IMG/VR virus record: IMGVR_UViG_3300025769_013847
Location: 1-22,019 of that record
DNA length: 22,019 nt
Source: a virus
Strand: one strand, 5' to 3'
In this document: positions 3,050-12,288 of the stretch, piece by piece
Numbering within the stretch: the first letter of the stretch is position 1
Layout: each line of letters starts with the position of its first letter
The notes under the pieces: generated by a model
The model's input: only the letters and a program-made list of their open reading frames with translations
What the model was told of the DNA's origin: nothing
The model's database searches: none
Translations under genes and position numbers: made by a program

Positions 3050-4414
3050 TCACAATCCTCCTATTTCTGATTGCTCTGGTATATCTTCCTCGTGAACAAC
3101 GCTTGCTGGGTCAATAAATCGAACCCTTGGAGCGTCAAAAGTGAGCCGTGCCGCCGCTGGACTACCATCCCTGACCTTAGCCATTGCAAGGACGGCATCG
3201 TCGCCGCGATAGCCTTGGTCGTTTTTTGGCCTATGCAACAGCATCACGATTTCAGCGTCTTTTTCGATTTGGTCCGAACCTGCAATCTCATTGATCTTGG
3301 GTGACCGATTTTCCTCTGCGGACTTTCGGTTGACTTGAGCAAGGGCGCATAAGTGCGGTCCATACCTCTTAGGGAGTGCCGAGAGCTTTTGAGATGTGTC
3401 TTTGATCTGCTCATGCGTGGCCGAAAGATTGCCCTGGTATCGAACGATCTGGATGTAATCCAAGAACACGCACGCCACCTGGTGCCGCTTAACTGCGGTG
3501 CGAATCAGCCTCTCGATATCGTCAACCGTGGCTCCAGGTGCAAAAGCAATCCAAAAGGGAGTAGTGCTTAGTTGCTCGTAAAAGGCTTTGACCTTCTCTT
3601 TCTGCTCTTGGGTAAGCTTTGCTCGCCTTATAACCCTGGCATCGATCCCTGTGGCATTAGCCGCTAGCCGGTTAATAATCGCATCCCTGGACATCTCAAT
3701 TGAGATAAACAGACAAGGGATTCGATGGGCAAAGCACATCTGATACAGGAACGACAAGCCAAGTGCCGTCTTGCCCTCTGACGGCCTCGCAGCAACCACA
3801 GACATCGTTTTCAAGGGGAGCCCGTCACACACCCCATCAACAGACCGGAAGCCAGTCGTCAAACCCGACAAGTCAGAGCCCTTTTTCATTTGCTCAACCA
3901 TGCTACGCTTCCAAGCCTCAGCCAAAGGCCCTCCACCCTCGATGAAAGCACCATGTTCAATTCCGATCTCTAAGCTATCTAGGATCGCTTTTAAATCGCT
4001 AGAGGTGTGAACACCCTCGGAAGCCGCGTTCAGGGCTTGCGCGGCAACCTGGACCACTTTACGGCGACTGTAGGACTCGGTGACGGCCTCAACTAGCTCG
4101 GGGTAGCACAAAGGGGAGCCGATTAGGTCTGGAGCCATCACCACAAAAGCGGGGCATCGGTCACCCGTTTTTTTGTGCCAAGCGACCATGAGCGAGGCGA
4201 TGTTGATTGGCAAAGATTCGCGAACCATCCCAGCCATAAGCTCGAACGCATCCCTCAGCCCTTGATGCTCGAAAACCTCAGCGTTCACCAGGTTCGAAAC
4301 CTCAAGGAAAATATCGAGCCCCCCGATAGCGCAGCAACCGATTAGAGCCATCTCTGCGGGGTGCTCTTTCGCTTCAGCAAGCTCAAGGGTAAATTTTGCC
4401 GGTTCGTGGGTCAT
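3050..4414 (-). CDS. dnaB: Replicative DNA helicase, DnaB type
   Basis: The 454-residue protein has the two-domain DnaB layout. Residues about 15-115 are the helical N-terminal domain (HPAEMALIGCCAIGG). The RecA-like motor starts near 185 with the Walker A motif ARPSEGKT at 209-216, IEMS at 239-242 with the catalytic Glu240, Walker B FLDY at 317-320, the sensor-like AQVNR at 359-363, the GSDQIEKDAE segment at 379-388, and KVRDG at 413-417 bearing the finger-type Lys/Arg. It unwinds DNA at the fork as a hexamer. The ATG overlaps the stop of the initiator gene by ATGA, so initiator and helicase are coupled, as in phages that load their own helicase. Codons 134-137 contain one copy of the 12-bp palindrome (4004-4015). 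Confidence 0.93.
   Translation of the reverse strand: MTHEPAKFTLELAEAKEHPAEMALIGCCAIGGLDIFLEVSNLVNAEVFEHQGLRDAFELMAGMVRESLPINIASLMVAWHKKTGDRCPAFVVMAPDLIGSPLCYPELVEAVTESYSRRKVVQVAAQALNAASEGVHTSSDLKAILDSLEIGIEHGAFIEGGGPLAEAWKRSMVEQMKKGSDLSGLTTGFRSVDGVCDGLPLKTMSVVAARPSEGKTALGLSFLYQMCFAHRIPCLFISIEMSRDAIINRLAANATGIDARVIRRAKLTQEQKEKVKAFYEQLSTTPFWIAFAPGATVDDIERLIRTAVKRHQVACVFLDYIQIVRYQGNLSATHEQIKDTSQKLSALPKRYGPHLCALAQVNRKSAEENRSPKINEIAGSDQIEKDAEIVMLLHRPKNDQGYRGDDAVLAMAKVRDGSPAAARLTFDAPRVRFIDPASVVHEEDIPEQSEIGGL
4004..4015. promoter_or_regulatory. Operator-like palindrome (inverse copy inside dnaB)
   Basis: GGTGTGAACACC on the plus strand is the reverse complement of the intergenic site. It lies in codons 134-137 (GVHT) of the helicase. 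Like the other intragenic copy it is a candidate dispersed repressor site. Confidence 0.5.
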
Positions 4415-5199
4415 GCCAGAAAATCTTTCAAGTCGATCTGGTCAGCCTGCTTCTCGGGCTTGCTCCTGGCCTGCTGAGCCATCGCCCTCTGATCGGGCTC
4501 GAAGATCCCTTGCCATTCGCACTCAAGCGACTTGGACACAGACGCGATTGCGCCAGCCGTCCCGAAGCTCGACAACTTTTTGAGCTGTCGACCGAAGAAA
4601 ACAGCGGGCTCTTGGGTGATCTTTTTGAGCCTAAATCGGAAGCTCACCCACTGCTCAAATAGCTCGACAAATTCAGGGTTGTTTTTCAGCCCTCCAGGCC
4701 ACTCCATTTCCAGCACCTCGAGCCAAGATTTTTCGGCAGTCCGTTTCGGTTTTGCCTTTGGCTTTTCCTCACGCGCTTCTTTATTCCTTAAGGGGATTAC
4801 TTTAAGGGGAGTACCTTTGTAGGTCTCATTTGGTAGGGGTCCCCTACCCTCATTTGGTAGGGGTGTCCTATCTACTTTGGTAGGGGTACCAAATAAGGGT
4901 ATAGGTCCATTTGGTAGGGGTGCTATACCCTCATTTGGTAGGGGTAAGGGTGTTTCCGCAATGCTGTAAACCGCTGTTTTCCCTGGCCGTTTTTGCACGC
5001 TGAGAACGTCCAAATCGACCAAGATTTTCAAGCTCGATCTGACTGTGTTTGCACTCAATCTACATGCCTCAGCAATGGTCGGGAGTGATGCGTAGCAACT
5101 CCCCCTTCTTGCCACATGACAAGCCACTCTGAACTCTTGAGATGTAAGCCTCATTTCGTCAATCCAAGCCGGAATAAATAGCGGTTCCCTTTTCATCAA
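4411..5199 (-). CDS. Winged-helix replication initiator
   Basis: This is a 262-residue protein. Residues about 15-80 form a winged helix-turn-helix (LTSQEFRVACHVARRGSCYA, then AEACRLSANTVRSSLKILVDLD), as in phage O-type or helicase-loading replication proteins. Residues about 85-125 are a Pro-rich low-complexity linker with repeated PLPNE units, encoded by five 15-bp DNA iterons. The C-terminal half (about 158-262) has the aromatic and charged pattern of DnaD- or O-like helicase-contact regions and ends in a short acidic tail. It lies between rusA and dnaB with ATGA overlaps on both sides. By analogy with lambda O, the protein probably binds the repeats inside its own gene and recruits the helicase. 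Family assignment rests on motif reading and context. Confidence 0.8.
   Translation of the reverse strand: MMKREPLFIPAWIDEMRLTSQEFRVACHVARRGSCYASLPTIAEACRLSANTVRSSLKILVDLDVLSVQKRPGKTAVYSIAETPLPLPNEGIAPLPNGPIPLFGTPTKVDRTPLPNEGRGPLPNETYKGTPLKVIPLRNKEAREEKPKAKPKRTAEKSWLEVLEMEWPGGLKNNPEFVELFEQWVSFRFRLKKITQEPAVFFGRQLKKLSSFGTAGAIASVSKSLECEWQGIFEPDQRAMAQQARSKPEKQADQIDLKDFLA
4788..4810. repeat. Pair of TTAAGGGGA direct repeats beside the iterons
   Basis: TTAAGGGGA occurs at 4788-4796 and 4802-4810, 14 bp apart, directly next to the iteron array and inside the initiator coding sequence. The pair may be a secondary element of the candidate origin or a by-product of repeat expansion in the linker codons. 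Confidence 0.45.
4826..4945 (-). repeat. Five 15-bp iterons, candidate replication origin
   Basis: On the plus strand the unit is TCATTTGGTAGGGGT. Copies lie at 4826-4840, 4850-4864, 4873-4887 (two changes), 4907-4921 (one change) and 4931-4945. Start-to-start spacing is 24, 23, 34 and 24 bp, i.e. roughly two helical turns apart or one extra turn. All point the same way and all sit in the linker region of the initiator gene, where they encode the PLPNE repeats. Phage lambda has its origin iterons inside gene O in the same way. No strongly AT-rich unwinding tract directly abuts the array, which is a weakness. Confidence 0.7.
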
Positions 5200-5627
5200 T
5201 CCACCAACTCAAGATAAATGAACACCCCTGGATGGACTTTAGCCCACTCCTTAGTAACGGCTAATGAAGTCAGATAAGAGTCATCATCAACCCGCCCAGA
5301 ATCGACCATTGCATCGATGACGGCCTTGGCTAGGTTGTCAACGTCGGGCTTTTGAGTGTGGACCCCTGGCGCGGCATCCCGCAGAATGTGGGCATTCTTA
5401 CCGGTCCTGTAGTGGGCCTTAGGTCTTGGCAAATGGAATTCCAAGGCTAGCTTGTAAGGCCCTTGACTAACGCCCATCTTGAGCCGTGTAAGAGACTTGA
5501 CAGCCGCTTTCCACATGTCAGCAGTGTCAGGAGTGTAAACTCTGGCTTGCTTTCCAAAAGATCTAGCCTTGACCCTTGGCTGAGCCACGGGGACGCCTTC
5601 GACGAAGTAAGACACTAAGTTACCCAT
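5196..5627 (-). CDS. rusA: RusA-family Holliday junction resolvase
   Basis: The protein is 143 residues, the usual RusA size. The diagnostic segment KPDVDNLAKAVIDAM lies at residues 93-107, followed by DDD at 114-116. Asp95, Asp97 and an Asp of the DDD run supply the metal-binding carboxylates of this family. The N-terminal part (FVEGVPVAQPRVKAR) matches the strand and basic patch usual in RusA. It should cut four-way DNA junctions formed during phage recombination or replication, before packaging. Its ATG lies within an 8-bp overlap with the preceding small gene, and its stop overlaps the initiator start by ATGA. Confidence 0.93.
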   Translation of the reverse strand: MGNLVSYFVEGVPVAQPRVKARSFGKQARVYTPDTADMWKAAVKSLTRLKMGVSQGPYKLALEFHLPRPKAHYRTGKNAHILRDAAPGVHTQKPDVDNLAKAVIDAMVDSGRVDDDSYLTSLAVTKEWAKVHPGVFIYLELVD

Positions 5628-8883: not shown

Positions 8884-9090
8884 TTATTCGCCATAGCCAG
8901 AGCCAGAGCCATCTCCAGAGCCAGAGCCATTGCCATCGCCATAGCCATCGCCATCGCCATAGCCATCGCCATCGCCAGAGCCATCTCCACAGCCAGAGCC
9001 ATAGCCATATCCAGAGCCATAGCCATAGCCAGAGCCAGAGCCATAGCCAGAGCCATCGCCATAGCCAGAGCCATCAATTATCTCGTCCAC
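8884..9090 (-). CDS. Gly-X dipeptide-repeat protein
   Basis: The 68-residue product starts at GTG 9090 (AAGG about seven bases upstream) and overlaps the end of the DUF6948-like gene by 13 bp. After a short DEIID lead, residues 7 to 67 alternate Gly with Ser, Tyr or Asp (GSGYGDGSGYGSGSGYGYGS and on). The DNA is a degenerate 6-bp tandem repeat, so two other frames are also open (Ala-Met and His-Ser/Arg repeats). The Gly-X frame is preferred for its placement in the operon, its SD and its natural stop. A flexible, tyrosine-bearing linker-like protein is expected; the function is unknown. It could also be non-coding repeat DNA. Confidence 0.55.
   Translation of the reverse strand: MDEIIDGSGYGDGSGYGSGSGYGYGSGYGYGSGCGDGSGDGDGYGDGDGYGDGNGSGSGDGSGSGYGE
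8888..9074. repeat. Degenerate 6-bp tandem repeat
   Basis: About 30 units of a CCATAG/CCAGAG/CCATCG-type hexamer run in register without a break. On the minus strand they read GGCTAT, GGCTCT, GGCGAT, i.e. Gly followed by Tyr, Ser or Asp. The strict hexamer phase means copy number can change by slippage without shifting the frame. Confidence 0.85.
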
Positions 9091-10459: not shown

Positions 10460-10597
10460 ATGACCACATTCTACCTATTTTTGTATATCGCTGGCTTCGC
10501 TTTTTCTTGCATCTGGCTTGCTTATCCGATAGTTGCAATGAACAGGCTCAAGAGCATTGACGAAAGCCTGAAACGCATCACTGGCGCGGAGAAATAG
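10460..10597 (+). CDS. 45-residue membrane peptide
   Basis: A plus-strand ORF begins MTTFYLFLYIAGFAFSCIWL, has one strong hydrophobic span (about residues 4-26) and a charged amphipathic tail (NRLKSIDESLKRITGAEK). Its end overlaps the 3' end of the convergent integrase gene by 20 bp. No SD is visible. The sharp division into membrane span and amphipathic helix argues for a real product, perhaps a lysogeny-expressed membrane peptide such as a superinfection-exclusion factor, but that role is only a guess. Confidence 0.4.
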   Translation: MTTFYLFLYIAGFAFSCIWLAYPIVAMNRLKSIDESLKRITGAEK

Positions 10598-11666
10598 CCA
10601 GCCAGCTTTCAGTATCCTCCTTGCTTACTAGCTCTCTGTAGACCCCTAGGAACACACTCGCAGAATGCCCTAGTTGCTCCGTTGCTTTCTCAATCCCATA
10701 CACGTTGTAGAAGTGGGAGGCCGCTGTTTTTCTCAGAGCATCATGAGGCCAGTTTTCAATCTCAGCGCTCTTTCTTAGAGCGTTGAATCTTCGCTTAAAG
10801 TTTGTAACCGGAACCCCATTGCCGGCCTTGATGCATTCCAGAGCTGGTTTTGTAAGGGTTACAATTCGACGGTTTCTAACTTTCGCCTTCTCGGCCTTCA
10901 GGAACACAAGCCCTCTCTTAATGTCGATTTCGCCCTCAGTGATCCTTAGGGCCTCCTCTGGTCTAATGCCACAAAACAAGGCCAGACCTAGATAGGTAAG
11001 CATCCCAAGGTCATCTACTGCTGCCACATCGACAAGCCTTTGACACTCCTCAACCGATAGGATCTGAGGGTCAACATGGGGCACCCTAACGCGCTCAACT
11101 CGCTGTGCTGGATTCTCGGCCAGATATCCCACTCGAACACAGTACGAAAAGAATGACGACAGCCGGTTGAGATGGGTTTGGCGAGTTGAAGGCGCTCCTT
11201 TTTTCGTGCTCAAATACTCTGAGACAAGCTTGTGATTGAGCTGGCTGATGTCCATCCCCTCCCGGTCCAGCACGAAAAGGCGAAGGCAAACACGCAACTG
11301 ATCAAGGTAAAGAGCCGAAAACCCTGCCGCCTTCTTGGCCTCTAAAAACTCATCTCGAGCATCCCCAAGCGTTCGGCCAGTCTTGGCGGCATGATGCTCT
11401 TTGAAAAAGGTCCAAACTTCGTCCAGAGAGACGTTTCGCTTGCTCATCTCTAAAAGCACCGTTGAGACCTTGGCTCGCTTTGATGGGGCCAATTGAGCCC
11501 ATACCCGCCCCGCTTCGTCCTTTTCCTCCTTGAAGAGCCGAAGAGCCGCTATTGCCTGCCCCTTGGTCTTGTAATACTTGCGCCGACGCTTGCCACCTAT
11601 CCTTCCAAAGTCTGCTTCCCAGCGAATCAGGGAGCCGTTAATGGTTACTTGAGTAGGCTTTGGCAT
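10578..11666 (-). CDS. int: Tyrosine-type phage integrase
   Basis: From ATG 11666 the product is 362 residues. The N-terminal part (TQVTINGSLIRWEADFGRIG) is an arm-binding-like beta region, residues about 100-190 a SAM-like core-binding domain (LGDARDEFLEAKKAAGFSAL), and the C-terminal half the catalytic domain with Arg235 (CGIRPEEA), HxxR at 308-312 (HDALR), His334 (LGHS) and the nucleophile Tyr343 (VYREL). It should recombine the attP beside it with a tRNA-Val gene. The frame is open to 11711, but those codons are the attP arm repeat (reading WSINGQ), so the internal ATG with an AGG eight bases upstream is preferred. It is transcribed leftward, convergent with the rightward regulator. Confidence 0.93.
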   Translation of the reverse strand: MPKPTQVTINGSLIRWEADFGRIGGKRRRKYYKTKGQAIAALRLFKEEKDEAGRVWAQLAPSKRAKVSTVLLEMSKRNVSLDEVWTFFKEHHAAKTGRTLGDARDEFLEAKKAAGFSALYLDQLRVCLRLFVLDREGMDISQLNHKLVSEYLSTKKGAPSTRQTHLNRLSSFFSYCVRVGYLAENPAQRVERVRVPHVDPQILSVEECQRLVDVAAVDDLGMLTYLGLALFCGIRPEEALRITEGEIDIKRGLVFLKAEKAKVRNRRIVTLTKPALECIKAGNGVPVTNFKRRFNALRKSAEIENWPHDALRKTAASHFYNVYGIEKATEQLGHSASVFLGVYRELVSKEDTESWLAISPRQ

Positions 11667-11680
11667 AATTGGCCTGAGAA

Positions 11681-11699
11681 ATTGACCATTTATTGACCA
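11681..11699. repeat. attP arm repeat, copy 1 (integrase side)
   Basis: ATTGACCATTTATTGACCA, itself two ATTGACCA units 11 bp apart. It is found just upstream of the preferred integrase start and is matched by two copies on the other side of the tRNA core, so it is a probable integrase arm-binding site. Confidence 0.7.
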
Positions 11700-11851
11700 C
11701 ATTGCGACCATTTTCTTGCTACCTAGCCGCTACCTCTCTCTAGCAAATGTAAGCAAGGGCAAATCGGAACACCCGCATAAGCAAAGGCGAAAGTCATTAA
11801 AGACCCGTAAATAAAGGCCATCGTCGACCTGTCCTGAAAAGAGACTAGGGC

Positions 11852-11899
11852 ACCTTGACACGGTAGGGGTCGGAGGTTCGAACCCTCCACCGCGCACCA
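11852..11899 (+). other. attP core: 3' part of tRNA-Val(GAC)
   Basis: The stretch reproduces the 3' half of a tRNA. It runs from the anticodon stem through the loop with anticodon GAC (11857-11859), the 3' anticodon stem, a five-base variable loop and the T arm (GGAGG, TTCGAAC, CCTCC at 11872-11888). The 3' acceptor strand follows (ACCGCGC, 11889-11895), then A and CCA (11896-11899). No matching 5' acceptor strand or D arm is present upstream, and base pairing stops after three pairs of the anticodon stem, so this is not a tRNA gene. Such a fragment next to an integrase gene is the standard attP core that rebuilds the target tRNA after insertion. Confidence 0.85.
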
Positions 11900-11968
11900 T
11901 TTTAACCCCATCTAAGCCAACGACTTAAATGCTTAGGCTGCCTGCCACACTCCGACCCCCTCTTAAGC

Positions 11969-11995
11969 CTATTGACCATTTATTGACCAAATTTG
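11969..11995. repeat. attP arm repeat, copy 2
   Basis: Contains the 19-bp arm repeat (11971-11989), and the identity with copy 3 extends to 27 bp. It lies about 70 bp beyond the tRNA core on the structural-gene side. Confidence 0.7.
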
Positions 11996-12261
11996 ATTGG
12001 TGGGAACCAAAGTCGTTCGATCTTTCACATTAAAAAAGAAAAAGCGCCACATCGATTGGATAGACCGATGGGACGCAGAATAGAGAGCCTGAAAGCCCTC
12101 AAAGTCGATGTTCAAGCCGACTGATATGAGGAGATAGATACTGCAGTTCTGGGCCGTTTTCAAGAGTGAATATTCATTTTTTGTATCCACGATTATTGAA
12201 GCTCTCTCCCGATCTGCCTTCCTTCACTTCCTTCCTTTGGGCTTAGAAAGCTCACTCAAGT
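11996..12261. other. Non-coding part of attP between arm repeats
   Basis: Between arm copies 2 and 3 I find no convincing gene. A 73-codon frame on the minus strand (12190 to 11969, GTG start) exists but has no SD, Phe-rich low-complexity stretches, and its last codons are the arm repeat. A short inverted repeat, CATCG and CGATG (12048-12068), and a GAATATTC palindrome are the only structures seen. The stretch may hold IHF- or accessory-protein sites. Confidence 0.45.
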
Positions 12262-12288
12262 CTATTGACCATTTATTGACCAAATTTG
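12262..12288. repeat. attP arm repeat, copy 3 (overlaps glycosyltransferase end)
   Basis: Contains the 19-bp unit at 12264-12282 and a 27-bp identity to copy 2. It also supplies the last codons of the glycosyltransferase gene (IWSINGQ, then stop), so the arm of attP and the end of a structural-side gene share DNA. Confidence 0.7.

Follow-up and report, generated by a model that had tools for sequence, protein, structure and literature searches.

Direct repeats in the linker codons of an O-like phage initiator gene as a putative replication origin

Results

Gene context and architecture of the initiator

The window, by which we mean the whole stretch of DNA analyzed in this work, is a virus record of 22,019 bases with nearly all its genes on the minus strand. 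Three adjoining genes are relevant here:

5196 to 5627, minus strand: RusA-like Holliday junction resolvase (Pfam RusA, 1e-21)
4411 to 5199, minus strand: O-like replication initiator of 262 aa (start TTG at 5199 or ATG at 5196)
3050 to 4414, minus strand: DnaB-type replicative helicase (Pfam DnaB_C, 1.2e-49; phrog_19, 4.2e-61)

The resolvase gene is located directly upstream of the initiator gene, in operon, and the DnaB gene directly downstream with an overlap of 4 bp; the order of an initiator-type gene followed by a DnaB gene is also found in several Nostoc plasmids. In a profile search, residues 11-254 of the initiator matched PHROG 678 ("replication initiation O-like") with an E-value of 2.4e-16. 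A Pfam scan with E-values up to 1 returned HTH_36 (1.2e-6) and five weaker families, with weaker replication-initiation families also matching and the lambda O family (Pfam phage replication protein O) absent from the matches. No match was obtained by tblastn against isolated phages, and a sequence search of the PDB gave nothing meaningful.

The protein consists of an N-terminal winged helix, a disordered linker and a helical C-terminal domain. In the AF2 model, the winged helix spans residues 11-80, mostly at pLDDT 90+, with the recognition helix at residues 50-62 and the wing between strands 66-69 and 77-80. The linker (residues ~82-150) is of low confidence, while the C-terminal helices (155-227) are modeled confidently. 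A fold search recovered only the generic winged helix (best Z 9.8), the best matches being winged-helix transcription factors.

Five iterons in the initiator linker

The 12-mer ACCCCTACCAAA occurs five times on the minus (coding) strand and is invariant in all five repeats, its 5' ends falling at 4945, 4921, 4887, 4864 and 4840 (spacing of 24, 34, 23 and 24 bp). The repeats, hereafter iterons, are as follows:

4931 to 4945, minus strand: iteron 1, ACCCCTACCAAATGA, in the frame of TPLPNE
4907 to 4921, minus strand: iteron 2, ACCCCTACCAAATGG, in the frame of PLPNG
4873 to 4887, minus strand: iteron 3, ACCCCTACCAAAGTA, in another frame than the other four (GTPTKV)
4850 to 4864, minus strand: iteron 4, ACCCCTACCAAATGA, in the frame of PLPNE
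4826 to 4840, minus strand: iteron 5, ACCCCTACCAAATGA, in the frame of PLPNE

The array coincides exactly with the initiator linker and was also picked up by Tandem Repeats Finder (4825-4887, period 24). No further site for the 15-mer repeat was found in the 22 kb window with up to three mismatches. Among 20,000 synonymous recodings of the same protein using the window's own codon usage, none contained more than two copies of ACCCCTACCAAA (mean 0.015; five observed). A harsher null, restricted to the linker's own codons, is conservative because the iterons themselves bias the codon pool; even so, none of its 300 recodings attained the observed repeat score. A preliminary description of this DNA had reported five co-oriented repeats in the linker of a winged-helix initiator, directly before the DnaB helicase gene, and both the reality of the array, beyond chance and unique in the window, and its placement were borne out. 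It had also stated that the repeats dictate a PLPNE peptide repeat. This holds for copies 1, 2, 4 and 5, which encode PLPN followed by E or G, but not for copy 3, which encodes GTPTKV; since this copy lies in another frame, the repeats do not dictate a single peptide repeat.

Relatives retain DNA repeats and change frame

Protein-seeded scans returned few relatives. One contig (L002/L009) encodes the same protein with 100% identity. Among diverged relatives the nearest is L010, with an identity of about 50% for the full-length protein and 74% for its C-terminal part. A different repeat, (A)GTATCCAGAATGG / AGTATCCAGAATGG, encoding GSIQNG, is present in five or more copies in the linker of L010, whose recognition helix reads NTVLKL versus NTVRSS in the window. 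The preliminary description had proposed to compare DNA-level with protein-level conservation among relatives and would have been refuted by relatives keeping a Pro-rich linker devoid of DNA repeats. The opposite is seen in L010, which keeps DNA repeats and changes both the repeat sequence and the peptide.

In a scan of viral contigs, the window's core was found in the linkers of L003, L004, L006, L013, L014/L019/L020 and L016, whose initiators were not linked to that of the window by protein searches and which read it in the frames PTK, PLPN and others. In a Verrucomicrobiota genome (L085), the third frame (PYQM/PSQM) is used by CCCCTACCAAATGG and CCCCTCCCAAATGG, and the helix reads KTVRSSL. 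Taken together, diverged initiators read this core in each of the three possible frames (PLPN / PTK / PYQM). As a control, 84,980 bacterial and archaeal genomes were searched for a triple CCCTACCAAA; none of the 21 stretches obtained lies in an initiator.

For a family-wide survey, viral contigs were scanned with a DNA pattern covering the winged-helix N-terminus only, so that the choice of genes was independent of the iterons, and the set was extended with plasmid and genome homologues. The repeat score exceeded that of all synonymous recodings (40 per gene, 300 for the window) in 49 of the 74 genes with a usable linker. Three or more linker repeat copies were observed in 61 relatives, 55 of which use two or more frames, and 128 of the 212 repeat intervals in these 61 genes measure 21-25 bp, about two helical turns. 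The repeats persist across the family while the frames change, and it is the DNA of the linker, not its peptide, that is conserved.

The opposite explanation, in which a Pro-rich repetitive linker is selected as a peptide and the DNA repeat is a mere by-product of the peptide repeat or of slippage, can invoke the PLPN encoded by four of the five copies and the predicted disorder of the linker. It is hardly tenable given that copy 3 is in another frame, that the repeat is lost on synonymous recoding and that relatives alter the peptide yet retain DNA repeats, mostly in two or more frames. Selection at the peptide level was rejected on the grounds of the frame changes and the recoding, and slippage does not account for the covariation with the recognition helix reported below.

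Besides these initiators, plasmids and phages encode short winged-helix homologues (L148, L149, L154, L155; 104-166 aa stop to stop) that end soon after the winged-helix domain, without linker repeats. They include the "replication initiation protein" of Escherichia phage 4MG and may be regulators rather than initiators.

Iteron sequence covaries with the recognition helix

Among 50 non-redundant proteins, iteron sequence was associated with the recognition helix when the rest of the domain was controlled for (partial Mantel 0.213, reached in 0 of 2000 permutations); the statistic of the reverse test was 0.117 (15 of 2000 permutations). In a scan of all 80 columns with overall identity regressed out, the highest score was that of N51 (z 5.97), ahead of R54 (z 3.49) and then R47, A43, T52 and K74; the top columns fall in the helix-turn-helix and K74 in the wing. 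N51 remained first in all three leave-out sets (without the window; without the cyanobacterial/Deinococcus group; without the window and its closest iteron-sharers). R54 dropped in two of the three and is thus less robust. In the same vein, at least two near copies of CCTACCAAAT were present in 9 of the 10 proteins of the [K/N]-x-x-R class (positions 51 and 54) versus 2 of the 43 others, the window being excluded (Fisher 1.2e-7). It is important to recall that this class was sharpened after part of the data had been seen, and that all these statistics ignore the tree relating the proteins, which are linked by descent.

From these data, the initiator very probably binds its linker repeats, an inference drawn from covariation alone in the absence of binding data. 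The lack of direct binding evidence leaves room for a host protein or another phage protein as the binder of the iterons, in place of the initiator's own winged helix, but no result favors such a binder and we consider it very unlikely: the iteron sequence tracks the initiator's own helix, N51 and R54 come out at the top of 80 columns, and N51 is robust to leaving groups out.

Other helix classes were also inspected. The rule that any T-x-R helix means CCTACCAAA proved too broad and was discarded, D-T-x-R proteins having other iterons; two of them (L059 and L141) have a CCCCCGAAAC-type repeat in common. GTCCCCCCAAACGGGAC is common to the two E/D-T-x-F proteins L095 and L112. Four proteins with an extended helix-turn-helix insert (L108, L132, L140, L153) seem to share TAGTGA/TAGTAGTGA-type iterons.

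A second, invariant element in the candidate unwinding region

Just beyond the iterons, a second element was observed in most members of the family, consisting of tandem AAGGTAATCC every 13-15 bp and identical whatever the iteron sequence. In the window, it lies within a locally unstable region:

4808 to 4817, minus strand: second element, copy 1, AAGGTACTCC (family consensus AAGGTAATCC)
4794 to 4803, minus strand: second element, copy 2, AAAGTAATCC, 14 bp on and in the other reading frame
4776 to 4835, no strand: candidate unwinding region holding the second element (nearest-neighbour stability)

The TTAAGGGGA pair of the preliminary description is indeed present at 4788-4796 and 4802-4810, but has to be seen as part of this wider element of the AAGGTAATCC type. 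Two or more copies of AAGGTAATCC, with up to two mismatches each, were found on the sense strand in 43 of 66 linkers and on the opposite strand in none of the 66; recoded linkers contained the element in 18 cases on average and 23 at most. The copies occupy more than one reading frame in 28 of the 43 genes. A strict scan for the tandem in 2.9 million viral contigs yielded 10 stretches, of which seven are these initiators and the remaining three copies of one Lys/Pro-repeat gene. A relaxed scan is unspecific on its own, with 13 of 27 hits in initiators and the rest mostly simple repeats. Between about 2.3 and 6.3 kb, no 60-bp stretch is less stable than the region 4776-4835, which is only moderately AT-rich (62% AT) and, in the whole window, takes rank 14 among the least stable stretches.

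The invariance of AAGGTAATCC leads us to infer that its reader is a conserved component, e.g. the C-terminal domain or DnaB. No description of the AAGGTAATCC element was found in the literature searched, which left out most subscription papers. Separately, a Zoogloeaceae MAG (L025, L036, L042, L043) contains 13-15 bp tandem arrays of the CCCTACCAAAGCG type outside any initiator.

Discussion

The interpretation that we favor, with a probability of about 0.86, is that a replication origin resides within the linker codons of the initiator gene, where the winged helix binds the iterons, the adjacent region is opened and DnaB is loaded. The iteron origin of the preliminary description is thereby supported by the O-like initiator together with DnaB, by the repeats of the relatives and by the covariation; binding, melting, helicase loading and origin activity remain inferences. 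The five iterons, which follow one another at about two helical turns, would be bound by the N-terminal winged helix with its recognition helix (N51, T52, R54 and neighbors) and its wing (K74). The assembled initiators may then strain or melt the adjacent 4776-4835 region, in which the tandem AAGGTAATCC-type repeats on one strand would serve as the unwinding and loading element, and the phage's own DnaB, encoded next door, would be loaded at the opened region. Since the sites sit inside the gene, initiator specificity and origin would always travel together.

Iteron initiators can autoregulate as well, and the repeats might instead be operators for repression of the operon by its own initiator, with replication starting elsewhere. 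Winged-helix proteins are often repressors, and the best fold matches of the initiator are transcription factors of this kind. We nevertheless find this improbable: the sites are internal to the gene, separated from its start by hundreds of bp and not placed at a promoter, the DnaB gene follows in the window as in the Nostoc plasmids, and the second repeat, independent of the iterons and always on the same strand, suits an origin and not an operator. The origin itself can be questioned on other grounds. There is neither wet-lab nor read-depth evidence for it, the 22 kb record could be a fragment and other origins are possible, and the candidate unwinding region, at its modest AT content, is surpassed in instability by other stretches of the window. 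GC skew, which had been put forward as a check, has no inflection at 4.8 kb and is uninformative where, as here, a 22 kb fragment has almost all its genes on the same strand.

The lambda ori is located inside gene O, and Stx phages possess six iterons, the extra ones adding residues to the protein (PMC7466680). As in these phages, where the initiator binds the iterons and an AT-rich tract lies alongside, iterons assigned to the initiator are found in the middle of its gene (PMC7466680). As regards its direct repeats, which are conserved as DNA and separate the DNA-binding domain from the C-terminal one, the window has the lambda-type layout. It differs from lambda in that its protein does not match the Pfam lambda O family, its iteron is asymmetric and of another sequence, its phage encodes a DnaB helicase instead of a P-type loader, and its flank is a conserved tandem repeat instead of a plain AT tract. 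Gene 12 of phage P22 codes for a DnaB-like helicase. The succession of an O-like initiator and a phage DnaB-type helicase is shared with P22 genes 18-12 (PMC3349717). The parallel to lambda ori drawn in the preliminary description is sound at the level of principle, which is lambda/P22-like; what we regard as a new variation is the arrangement in two elements, together with a specificity code that can be read.

The RK2 origin is not known to lie in the linker of its initiator, and the RK2 Rep protein differs by its two winged helices. The likeness to RK2 is in the juxtaposition of iterons and strand-oriented tandem repeats of 13-15 bp. In RK2 oriV, the iterons are accompanied by four 13-mers in the unwinding region, which TrfA binds as single strand (PMC4081077). 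By analogy only, the second element resembles these 13-mers, without single-strand binding data for AAGGTAATCC. Finally, P1 oriL inside repL is a synonymous-sensitive origin sequence within an initiator gene that differs by an essential AT-rich region, with no comparable iteron array described in the abstract (PMC9948254).

A broader reading is that these are widespread phage and plasmid origins, located in the initiator linker, that combine iterons predictable from a few recognition-helix residues of that gene with an invariant tandem AAGGTAATCC read by non-variable machinery, i.e. the initiator C-terminal domain or DnaB as candidate readers. We see the chances of this joint proposal as evenly balanced. 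If it is true, each gene would be a self-labelled protein-DNA pair, metagenomes would provide natural data from which to decipher winged-helix recognition, and sequence alone would suffice to call origins. While lambda is already known for an origin inside its initiator gene, the principle here extends to dozens of diverged initiators from phages and plasmids alike. With binding site and reader covarying in one gene, winged-helix/DNA recognition becomes testable by statistics and residue swaps: if a specificity code exists, R54L together with neighboring changes should move preference from CCTACCAAAT towards ATCCAGAATGG, and the reverse is expected in the L010 protein. The origin of an uncultured phage would become recognizable from its sequence, and AAGGTAATCC offers a concrete candidate signal, shared across the family, for unwinding or helicase loading. 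A search that lacked most older subscription papers yielded no description of a broad family combining an invariant second element with frame-free iterons that covary with the helix, and the novelty of a family with two elements is not proven.

Other repeats were noticed in the window. Three direct repeats with a TATTGACCATTTATTGACCAAATTTG core (11672-11705, 11962-11995 and 12255-12288, about 290 bp apart) adjoin the integrase gene (10578-11711) and are possible integrase arm or attachment sites. Between them, a small ORF (11730-11900) encodes a GGGFEPPTP-type peptide of a kind known from ORFs overlapping tRNA genes, although no tRNA was found in the window. Another small ORF, encoding a Gly-Ser-Tyr-Asp-rich peptide, contains an 18-bp tandem repeat (GCCATCGCCATAGCCAGA) in about ten copies at 8890-9075.
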